From NCBI GenBank assembly GCA_021201795.1, contig JAJQEF010000016.1:166543-230542 (forward strand): a DNA stretch of 64,000 bases, given 5' to 3'. The DNA comes from Rikenellaceae bacterium. Its GTDB lineage: Bacteria; Bacteroidota; Bacteroidia; Bacteroidales; Rikenellaceae. The position numbers were made by a program, and so were the translations under genes. Below the pieces are notes generated by a model. The model was not told where the DNA came from, did not search any database, and was given only the letters and a program-made list of their open reading frames with translations. Below are positions 60,054-62,870 of the stretch, in pieces. The number at the start of each line of letters is the position of its first letter. The first letter of the stretch is position 1.

Positions 60054-60143
60054 TTCCCGTTTAATATACAGGAATAGATAAATACTATTGTAATTATCGT
60101 GCATTAACTTATATAAGTGAATTGTAAGGTAATTTTTTATTTA

Positions 60144-60152
60144 TATTTTTGC
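60144..60152 (+). promoter_or_regulatory. -7 element of the 174-aa/ParA-like pair
   Basis: TATTTTTGC fits TAnnTTTGY, 28 nt before the ATG at 60181 in an AT-rich gap after mnmE. No -33 TTTG. Confidence 0.5.
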
Positions 60153-60180: not shown

Positions 60181-60705
60181 ATGAATTTTCCTTTTTTTAA
60201 AACTTATTCCCGTAAATGTCCTGACGGAACAAAACATGAAATATATAGAGACATAAATGAGGTTTTACCTCTGTATTTAACTGACAAGAATGGAGGGATT
60301 TCAGTCAATGCTGATGTAATACAGACCATAACTGCTGGCATCGATGCGAATTATGTTAAGAAAATTTCCGGATTGCTGATCGACCTTGATGAATCCAACC
60401 GCAGCTTGATGTTCTTTTTTAGAGCGGTATATCTGGTTTACAAAAGTGAACCGTGCAAAAATTCAGATTATTTTACAGCAAATACCACCAAAATAATGAA
60501 CGATCATTTAAAACTCAAGGCTTTGGATACACGTATCAAAGGTTTGATAAATTTGGCGAATAGTTGTGAAGAGAAAAATTTTTCAGAATTATATAAAAGT
60601 ATTATACAGGATTTCGGTGAGTTTCTACCTAATGAAGCATCCAGGGCAAAAATTTCTTATATGAGGAGTGCTGCTCAAGAATGGAAAAATCAGGACCAAA
60701 ATTAA
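60181..60705 (+). CDS. Unrecognised 174-aa helical protein
   Basis: I recognise no family. No signal peptide or TM helix; the protein appears mostly alpha-helical and cytoplasmic, with a short N-terminal strand region (KCPDGTKHEIYRDINEVLPLYL) then helices (KKISGLLIDLDESNRSLMFFFRAVYLVYK; LKALDTRIKGLINLANSCEEKNFSELYKSIIQDFGEFL). It has its own -7 element and lies 9 nt before the ParA-like gene, so the two are probably one unit and may interact. It could be an adaptor for that ATPase; this is inference. Confidence 0.7.
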   Translation: MNFPFFKTYSRKCPDGTKHEIYRDINEVLPLYLTDKNGGISVNADVIQTITAGIDANYVKKISGLLIDLDESNRSLMFFFRAVYLVYKSEPCKNSDYFTANTTKIMNDHLKLKALDTRIKGLINLANSCEEKNFSELYKSIIQDFGEFLPNEASRAKISYMRSAAQEWKNQDQN

Positions 60706-60714
60706 ATTTTCCGT

Positions 60715-61890
60715 ATGAAGGTATATAGTTTTATAAGTGCAAAGGGCGGTTCCGGAAAAACAATCCTGACAGCAACCATAGCGGATTTTCTTTCTCAGCT
60801 AGGAAAGAAAGTATTGATCATCGACTCCGATGGAAGTACAAACGGGCTGACTCTTTTTTATTTACAGGATATCTTGGACCACAGGAAAAATAATAATAAA
60901 ATTCATAGGGGCATATTGGAAGAAGATAGGGGCTTTACACTTTCGGATAATACGGTAAAGCTGTCGAATGGAGTGCAGCTTATTCCTGCGACATATTCGT
61001 TTAACAACACCGACTGTTTTAATATAGAGACGTTTTATAATAACATCCACAATGTCGTGAAATATTTTAGCCGTCCATCTTCAGGTATAGATTTCATACT
61101 TATCGACTGTCAGGCTGGTTCCGACCACCATACAGAGATCGTTATCAGACCGGAGATAAGCAATGAAATTATTATCGTCAGCGAATATGATCCTATATCT
61201 GCTGCCGGTTTGGAAAGACTTAAAGGATTTTTCAGCAACGATCTGACTTATGAACGAACATGGACATTGTTGAATAAGGTGCTGCCGGAGTTTGCAAATA
61301 GTAATAGTGATTTTCTGGAAATATCAAAATATCTTCCTCCCGTCCTATGGGATGCGGCGGTGGTGAAGAAATATGCCCGCAAGGAAATTGCACTGGATTT
61401 AGAGTACGGAAGCAAATATACGCTGAATATTATAACTGTCTTAAGAGCGCTTATGGGTAAAGACATAAAGACCAGTCTGGATGTCTGGATAAAAGAAAAA
61501 AGCGAAATCGTTAAACAGACGATATACGCAGAATACCAGAATCTGAAACTTATACTGGAAGATTATAAAAAAGAAGATCAAAAAAGCAGATTAATGTTAT
61601 CACTGAGAATGATGTTTTTATTTCTATTAATTTTTTCTTTAGTATTAGGATGGTTTTTTATTCCGGAAGGGTACATAAGTGAAAATAATTTATTTAACAC
61701 TGTGTTATTTTCGTTACCTTTATTTGGTGCCGGGATAATTTTGGCTAGTATGTATACCTCTAAAATGAATAAAGTAGATCATACTTATGAAAAAGAAGCC
61801 CTTATAAAGCGGATTCAGGAACTGGAAATATTGAAGCACTCAGATCCTGAAAAGATACTGAGGGTCAAACAGAGAGAGAATAATCTATAA
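60715..61890 (+). CDS. ParA/MinD-like ATPase with C-terminal two-helix membrane module
   Basis: 391 aa. MKVYSFISAKGGSGKTILTATIADFLSQLGKKVLIIDSD has a deviant Walker A (KGGSGKT, residues 10-16) and the following IDSD. FILIDCQAGSDHHTEIVIRPEI is the switch II/Walker B region. After the ATPase (about 1-245) come helices (VWIKEKSEIVKQTIYAEYQNLKLIL), TM1 (about 299-316), TM2 (about 330-347) and a cytoplasmic coiled coil. Plasmid or chromosome ParA proteins have no such tail, and no ParB or MinC/E is nearby. The tail layout recalls SLATT-type 2TM modules of conflict systems, by shape only. Confidence 0.75.
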   Translation: MKVYSFISAKGGSGKTILTATIADFLSQLGKKVLIIDSDGSTNGLTLFYLQDILDHRKNNNKIHRGILEEDRGFTLSDNTVKLSNGVQLIPATYSFNNTDCFNIETFYNNIHNVVKYFSRPSSGIDFILIDCQAGSDHHTEIVIRPEISNEIIIVSEYDPISAAGLERLKGFFSNDLTYERTWTLLNKVLPEFANSNSDFLEISKYLPPVLWDAAVVKKYARKEIALDLEYGSKYTLNIITVLRALMGKDIKTSLDVWIKEKSEIVKQTIYAEYQNLKLILEDYKKEDQKSRLMLSLRMMFLFLLIFSLVLGWFFIPEGYISENNLFNTVLFSLPLFGAGIILASMYTSKMNKVDHTYEKEALIKRIQELEILKHSDPEKILRVKQRENNL

Positions 61891-62057: not shown

Positions 62058-62084
62058 AGACGCCATTTTGGGCGTCTTTATTTT
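62058..62084 (+). terminator. Terminator downstream of the ParA-like gene
   Basis: AGACGCC-ATTTTG-GGCGTCT followed by TTATTTTT: a 7-bp G/C-rich stem and U tract. It lies 168 nt after the ParA-like stop, leaving a long 3' region. Confidence 0.75.
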
Positions 62085-62129
62085 TGGAATTTAGTATAGT
62101 TTTTGATAGAGGTCTTGAAAAGAGATCGC

Positions 62130-62870
62130 ATGAAAAGAAATATTATCGTAATATTAGTATTGTTGAATTTACTATGTACACACAATATATACAGCCAGAT
62201 AACGGAGAAGAAAATAGATTTTAATTTTTTAATAGGGGCGAATTTAGGGGCGACTACTCCCGTCCCTATACCAGGGGACCTTAAGATTACAGGTTATAAT
62301 CCGAGGCTCAATCCCAAGTTGGGAGTTAATATCGCTTATTATTTTAATCGGAATTGGGGAGTGGGATCCGGTCTTACGGTCGATTGGAAGGGAATGAAAG
62401 TCCACACTAAAGTAAATAATGTACATTTAAGTGTAAATGTACCTAATGTAGGTACTCTTACAGGTTATGTAACGGGTAAGAACAGAACCAAGGTAAATTC
62501 CGTATATCTTGTGCAGCCTGTTTATGGTGTCTACAGGTTCAATAATCCTCAATGGAAGGTTAAAGCCGGAATATATATGGCGGAGACTTTGTACAGGAAA
62601 TTTAATGGTAATGTTACCGATGTTATTATAACGGTTGAGCAGCCTGTTGTTCAGGAACTAAATATTGCTTATGCTACCTTGGATTACAGTAACGATGCCC
62701 GTAAATTCGACATGGGTTTATTGGCCGGAACAGAATTCCTGATTAACGATCATGTGGGATTTTTTGCTGATTTTACATGGGGATTAACTCCGTATTTCTT
62801 CAAAAGGGTTCCCATACATTTTACCATGCGTAATATATACTTTTCAATAGGTGCCACATTCCGTATATAG
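62130..62870 (+). CDS. Outer-membrane beta-barrel protein (PorT-like)
   Basis: 246 aa from ATG 62130 (MKRNIIVILVLLNLLCTHNIYSQ, a signal peptide); the track's TTG at 62103 adds a charged stretch before the signal and is less likely. The mature part shows paired strands (FNFLIGANLGATTPVPIPGD, LGVNIAYYFNRNWGVGSGLTVDWKGMKV, FDMGLLAGTEFLINDHVGFFADFTWGL) and ends NIYFSIGATFRI. It fits the small-barrel family of Bacteroidota. Function unknown. Confidence 0.83.
   Translation: MKRNIIVILVLLNLLCTHNIYSQITEKKIDFNFLIGANLGATTPVPIPGDLKITGYNPRLNPKLGVNIAYYFNRNWGVGSGLTVDWKGMKVHTKVNNVHLSVNVPNVGTLTGYVTGKNRTKVNSVYLVQPVYGVYRFNNPQWKVKAGIYMAETLYRKFNGNVTDVIITVEQPVVQELNIAYATLDYSNDARKFDMGLLAGTEFLINDHVGFFADFTWGLTPYFFKRVPIHFTMRNIYFSIGATFRI

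Follow-up and report, generated by a model that had tools for sequence, protein, structure and literature searches.

The original prediction had placed two open reading frames between mnmE and an outer-membrane β-barrel gene, and both are present there in the window analysed here (the whole 64-kb stretch of DNA), where Pfam matches of the neighbouring genes agree with this setting. The features of the locus, all on the + strand, are as follows.

60122..60151, +, Bacteroidales-type promoter-like motif (pattern match; putative function)
60181-60705, +, gene 1, open reading frame for an orphan, probably soluble and largely helical protein of 174 aa
60715-61890, +, gene 2, 391-aa MinD/FlhG-like deviant-Walker-A ATPase with a C-terminal two-transmembrane (2TM) hairpin (profile matches and hydropathy)
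61459..61584, +, linker helix of gene 2, residues 249-290, leading into TM1 (single-sequence model)
61585..61758, +, transmembrane hairpin of gene 2, residues 291-348 (hydropathy)
62058..62085, +, intrinsic-terminator-like hairpin after the pair (7-bp stem, T-rich tail)

The two genes are in tandem and separated by 9 bp. In 1000 Markov simulations of the pair's interval, the largest chance open reading frame had a size of 135, and none reached at least 174 aa. The promoter-like motif, which ends 29 bp 5′ of gene 1, consists of TTG at 60122 and TATTTTTG at 60144, the latter fitting TAnnTTTG. The same pattern has 8 matches on both strands of the window and lies within 200 bp upstream of 4 of its 46 genes. 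On the 5′ side of the pair, Pfam identified GSCFA, a duplicated ABC ATPase (ABC-F type), HisS, and MnmE (TrmE_N and MnmE_helical). On the 3′ side, the β-barrel gene (OMP_b-brl_2, 5e-22) follows on the same strand, and then msrAB on the opposite strand. The scan of neighbouring genes from 52.4 to 63.8 kb detected no ParB, MinC/E or plasmid genes, as had been predicted. Secretion or synthase genes were not recognised near the pair, and neither an integrase nor a known defence gene lies beside it.

Gene 1 has the lowest GC3 among the genes of the window. Because its codon score is nevertheless ordinary, composition does not prove a foreign origin, and the codon use and GC of the pair give no clear foreign signal. 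A search next to the pair for a duplicated mnmE 3′ end, as an att repeat, found none. A 17-nt repeat at 60074/62024 (88%) was considered as an att site and discarded, as it is equalled by other repeats in this AT-rich stretch.

The 174-aa protein of gene 1 had been called unrecognised, and this description holds: it matched no family in Pfam or NCBIfam, and its best PHROGs match (E = 0.015) is unconvincing. A weak match to the PADLOC model RTasSLATT (E = 0.0076) covers residues 99-167. Hydropathy gave no transmembrane segment, and the single-sequence AlphaFold model, of low confidence (mean pLDDT 41.2), is mostly helical; the protein is probably soluble and mostly helical.

The KGGSGKT motif and switch regions reported for the ATPase are confirmed by motif positions and profile matches. 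Gene 2 contains KGGSGKT (10-16), IIDSD (35-39), IDCQAG (130-135) and NK (187-188), including the signature lysine K10, the Walker A lysine K15, and D37/D39. It matches AAA_31 at 9e-16, above the gathering cut-off, CbiA at 1e-10, and BcsQ (PF06564) at 5e-7, with weak scores against CpaE-type profiles. The match to minD_arch (1e-14) reaches 54.2 bits against a curated cut-off of 201.75, and that to minD_bact 36.1 bits against 212.9. The best solved relative is Aquifex MinD (PDB 4v03; phmmer 4e-10, residues 5-173). By these motifs and profiles, gene 2 is assigned to the MinD/ParA-type deviant-Walker-A ATPase superfamily. We rejected an assignment as a MinD equivalog: the scores are far under the curated cut-offs, the tail is a 2TM hairpin and not an amphipathic helix, and min genes are absent nearby.

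In a maximum-likelihood tree of gene 2, 46 ParA-type controls from related genomes and four 2TM relatives (described below), 43 Soj/ParA-type proteins fall on one side of a 100/100 branch and gene 2 (P0002) falls outside. Its own placement, on a long branch, is weakly supported (58/45). Judged from its sequence, gene 2 appears closer to MinD/FlhG than to Soj/ParA. A Soj/ParA partition ATPase identified by its neighbour was also considered and set aside, as the Pfam scan gave no adjoining ParB. A separate Soj-like ParA is encoded on another contig of the same genome (G000:C34).

The tail of gene 2 had been described as helices, a transmembrane hairpin and a coiled coil. The hairpin is borne out by hydropathy, with maxima of 2.48 and 1.94 corresponding to two transmembrane segments within residues 291-348. 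The loop between them has no Lys/Arg and two acidic residues, whereas Lys/Arg versus Asp/Glu counts are 10 versus 8 in the C-terminal flank and 5 versus 4 in the N-terminal flank. This charge pattern weakly suggests an N-in/C-in topology. The flanking helices are consistent with the single-sequence AlphaFold model, in which residues 249-314 form a single unbroken helix, although confidence is low (block pLDDT about 54-81; whole model 50.5). The coiled coil is unproven, because the heptad pattern in the helices flanking the hairpin was not significant (p = 0.52 and 0.68). A Foldseek search with this low-confidence model, a check proposed for the ATPase, returned zero matches below E = 0.001. 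The resemblance of the tail to SLATT-type modules found no backing in profiles: searched alone, it matched no SLATT model in Pfam, NCBIfam or PADLOC at E values up to 10.

The pair appears to be confined to this genome in the samples searched. The searches covered three overlapping sets, namely 41 relatives, 393 order-level genomes and 118 family-level genomes; at E ≤ 0.001, gene 1 was found in its own genome only. Gene 1 was also absent from plasmids, phages, viral contigs and GTDB contigs, in contig scans that detect close relatives only. Weak matches in 29 further order-level genomes (E = 0.004-0.1) were treated as noise, because the fetched loci have no KGGxGK-type ATPase in their 1.5-kb flanks. 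No full-length close relative of gene 2 was found in the genomes, plasmids, phages and viral contigs searched; with or without its N-terminal part, it gave ParA-domain matches only, with one exception (G619, described below). A match at L084 was dismissed, as it overlaps no relevant gene. The pair was not found in any other genome of the family, order, class and phylum samples, where some whole-genome searches scored few candidates per genome and may have missed remote relatives.

The sister species (G001) lacks the pair: between its mnmE and msrAB lies a 199-aa gene, and the genes beyond msrAB are collinear with this genome. The pair has therefore either been inserted into the mnmE-msrAB interval of this genome or been lost from that of the sister. 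Insertion is favoured because the pair is absent from the rest of the family sample, and we infer that it was acquired. The β-barrel gene (62103-62870 in the window) is present in G001 at a different locus (C8) without the pair, so this interval has been rearranged more than once. An accessory status of the pair is likely. Seven relatives have a similar terminator hairpin 26-49 bp past the mnmE stop codon, whereas here the strong hairpin is about 2 kb away, past the pair; none was detected near the mnmE stop of the sister species. The hairpin after the pair is possibly the displaced mnmE terminator, which would fit an insertion past the stop codon and ahead of the terminator without proving it.

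The 3′ flank of mnmE is a hotspot of integration and cargo in the Bacteroidales family of the window genome. Of 16 family flanks at least 8 kb long, 5 have a tyrosine recombinase (Phage_integrase) no more than about 1.4 kb from mnmE, versus 0 of 20 control stretches of 13 kb placed arbitrarily in ten of the same genomes (Fisher p = 0.012). The integrase HMM used for scoring was built from four of the flank matches and is thus biased towards such flanks. The same HTH leader gene is present in three short flanks on contigs that end there, and many draft contigs break off less than 1 kb from the mnmE 3′ end. The flanks carry type I (G1153 and G008) and type III (G021) restriction-modification genes, a Dam-like methylase with SoFic (G1151), and candidate defence cargo in G1133, namely an LmuB-like ATPase (5e-23) near a PDC-S05 protein (1.5e-152) at L130:1174-5024; this list covers proteins that were picked for scanning by their defence-like look. 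The mnmE/trmE 3′ end is described in PMC8409611 as the integration target of all known SGI1 variants.

The hotspot is seen at L117, L118, L129, L130 and L133 (and at L122, L125 and L131), as a tyrosine recombinase, often with an HTH leader gene, directly after mnmE.

The sole exception at the phylum level, G619 (L066/L080), encodes a 345-aa ATPase with a C-terminal 2TM segment. A profile of gene 2 and the G619 protein retrieved three IMG/VR contigs (L144-L146), each encoding a MinD-like ATPase of 343 aa whose C-terminus forms a 2TM hairpin. The cassettes of these contigs and of L080, each composed of a 3TM protein and a MinD-like 2TM ATPase, are located as follows.

L146, 4624-6032, opposite to the late genes, 3TM + MinD-2TM cassette
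L145, 4615-6029, opposite to the late genes, 3TM + MinD-2TM cassette
L144, 1037-2427, opposite to the late genes, 3TM + MinD-2TM cassette
L080, 263-1653, 3TM + MinD-2TM cassette

In L144-L146, the ATPase gene is preceded by a gene for a hydrophobic, 3TM-like protein of 120-128 aa, and the cassette lies between the baseplate and tail-completion genes of P2-like prophages (S-V; confirmed with PHROGs for L146). The S-V interval of P2 is the position of orf30, and the orf30, Z/fun and TO loci commonly hold acquired genes in P2-like phages (PMC3091744, PMC6823313). The L080 cassette encodes proteins of 118 and 345 aa, which are 31% (partners) and 46% (ATPases) identical to the prophage versions; within its own family, the L080 ATPase is present in 1 of 81 genomes. 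Its presence in both Bacteroidota and P2-like prophages gives this conserved two-gene cassette the look of a mobile accessory unit. PADLOC reported nothing in it beyond the P-loop. As an observation in its own right, the prophage cassette is a candidate exclusion or defence system.

Gene 2 is 23-26% identical to the ATPases of the prophage family. An HMM of the four 2TM ATPases gives it 34.8 bits, the third score of 48 and above the Soj controls; the two proteins above it are MinD/FlhG-like controls. Forcing gene 2 together with the four 2TM ATPases in the tree costs 0.73 log-likelihood units (p-AU 0.40). Common descent beyond the MinD-type domain is thus a possibility that these sequence comparisons neither demonstrate nor reject, and the C-terminal hairpin common to both may be convergent. 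A 3TM partner directly upstream of gene 2 was looked for and rejected, as gene 1, which occupies this position, has no transmembrane segment.

Our best, though tentative, explanation is that the pair forms an accessory operon of two genes, acquired horizontally into the mnmE 3′ flank and most likely serving in phage conflict by abortive infection or superinfection exclusion. The anatomy is solid, as the ATPase motifs, the hairpin, the tandem order of the genes, their variable location and the hotspot in relatives are all read from sequence; the 9-bp gap, the promoter-like motif and the terminator-like hairpin speak for an operon. We propose phage conflict because the accessory distribution and the hotspot fit a membrane effect on infection best. 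Judged from its location, such a role is plausible, somewhat short of an even chance. The defence reading of the original prediction thus gains circumstantial support from the hotspot and the prophage cassette; the lack of a defence gene, integrase or att repeat beside the pair and its not clearly foreign codon use and GC speak against our explanation, and so do the low confidence of the structure models, the uncertain kinship of gene 2 with the prophage ATPases beyond the MinD-type domain, the different partner in the prophage cassette and the putative nature of the cassette's own defence role.

In the proposed mechanism, the gene 2 ATPase would be fixed in the inner membrane via its hairpin, with the gene 1 product as a soluble helical partner. 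ATP-bound gene 2 subunits would pair as a MinD-type sandwich dimer. Because attachment by a transmembrane hairpin would be permanent, the ATP cycle would alter the association or packing of hairpins, not membrane binding; ATP binding, hydrolysis or partner release would each shift this packing in the membrane. The gene 1 product, which is encoded first, could be an infection sensor or a restraint that keeps the ATPase inactive. Either its release or its binding of a ligand would trigger a membrane-level response. A wider proposal, which we regard as doubtful, is a new anti-phage class in which MinD-like switches with a C-terminal 2TM hairpin and exchangeable small partners, a 3TM protein in P2-like prophages and a soluble helical one here, control a membrane effector through ATP-driven dimerisation.

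The pair might instead have a role unrelated to phage, in which a permanently tethered MinD/FlhG-like ATPase places cargo through gene 1. MinD is the closest characterised relative of gene 2, a fixed anchor would replace the reversible membrane-targeting helix, and two controls that read as MinD/FlhG-like from sequence (L057 and L074) score near the 2TM prophage family. However, MinD requires reversible membrane cycling, which a permanent anchor removes, and the pair is species-specific with no cargo genes recognised beside it; we consider a positioning device improbable. An accessory of envelope, secretion or polysaccharide functions (BcsQ- or CpaE-like), perhaps acting with the neighbouring β-barrel, is slightly less probable still. 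The BcsQ match, the weak CpaE-type scores and the position of the barrel gene next on the same strand would suit it, but the sister keeps the barrel gene at a different locus that lacks the pair, a terminator-like hairpin separates it from the pair here, and the vicinity contains no recognised secretion or synthase genes.

We give similarly little credence to a mobile-element leftover, that is, a partition or mobilisation ATPase that outlasted an integration event at mnmE and has little function today. The entry of integrative elements into the mnmE flank in this family would suit this reading, as would the frequent occurrence of ParA-like proteins on such elements. Against a leftover, both open reading frames are intact with full ATPase motifs, the 100/100 branch that groups the Soj/ParA-type controls leaves gene 2 outside, and we know of no partition ATPase with a transmembrane hairpin. 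The least probable reading, and one already disfavoured, is a SLATT-type two-TM effector fused to the ATPase. The general layout and the weak RTasSLATT score of gene 1 agree with such a fusion, but the tail is unmatched in the three profile collections and gene 1 has no transmembrane segments.

Positioning and partition are the known roles of MinD-type ATPases. Should the pair or the prophage cassette prove to protect against phage, this ATPase class would join the immune repertoire and would provide a further means of linking a nucleotide switch with the membrane. Independently of this, more systems may be sought in the mnmE 3′ flank.

Among known systems, MinD/FlhG of the SIMIBI class, including Aquifex MinD, resembles gene 2 in its KGGxGKT motif with the signature lysine and in the DxxAG of switch II. 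MinD dimerises as a sandwich when its subunits have bound ATP, and hydrolysis is stimulated by a partner. Gene 2 differs in having a 2TM anchor where MinD has a reversible amphipathic helix, in its profile score (54 versus a cut-off of 202 bits), in lacking MinC/MinE nearby, and in its orphan partner. The KAP/Tmn-type phage-defence NTPases are, like gene 2, membrane-embedded P-loop NTPases encoded in accessory loci. They belong to a different P-loop class, with TM helices inserted within the NTPase domain, and no KAP model was matched in Pfam or PADLOC. SLATT modules are likewise composed of two TM helices with flanking helices, but the tail of gene 2 does not match their profiles.

The prophage cassette shares with the pair two small tandem genes, a MinD-like domain with DxxAGxD and D-x-I-S, a C-terminal 2TM hairpin, and an accessory distribution. 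In contrast, its partner is a 3TM protein whereas that of gene 2 is soluble, its ATPases lack the extended helix after TM2, and the tree does not join gene 2 to them. Our literature search on MinD/ParA-type defence yielded nothing directly relevant and no description of a membrane-anchored MinD-type component of phage defence. MinD/ParA domains have been named as effector domains in the VMAP conflict systems (PMC7159879); these are predicted to be inactive, whereas the motifs of gene 2 are intact.
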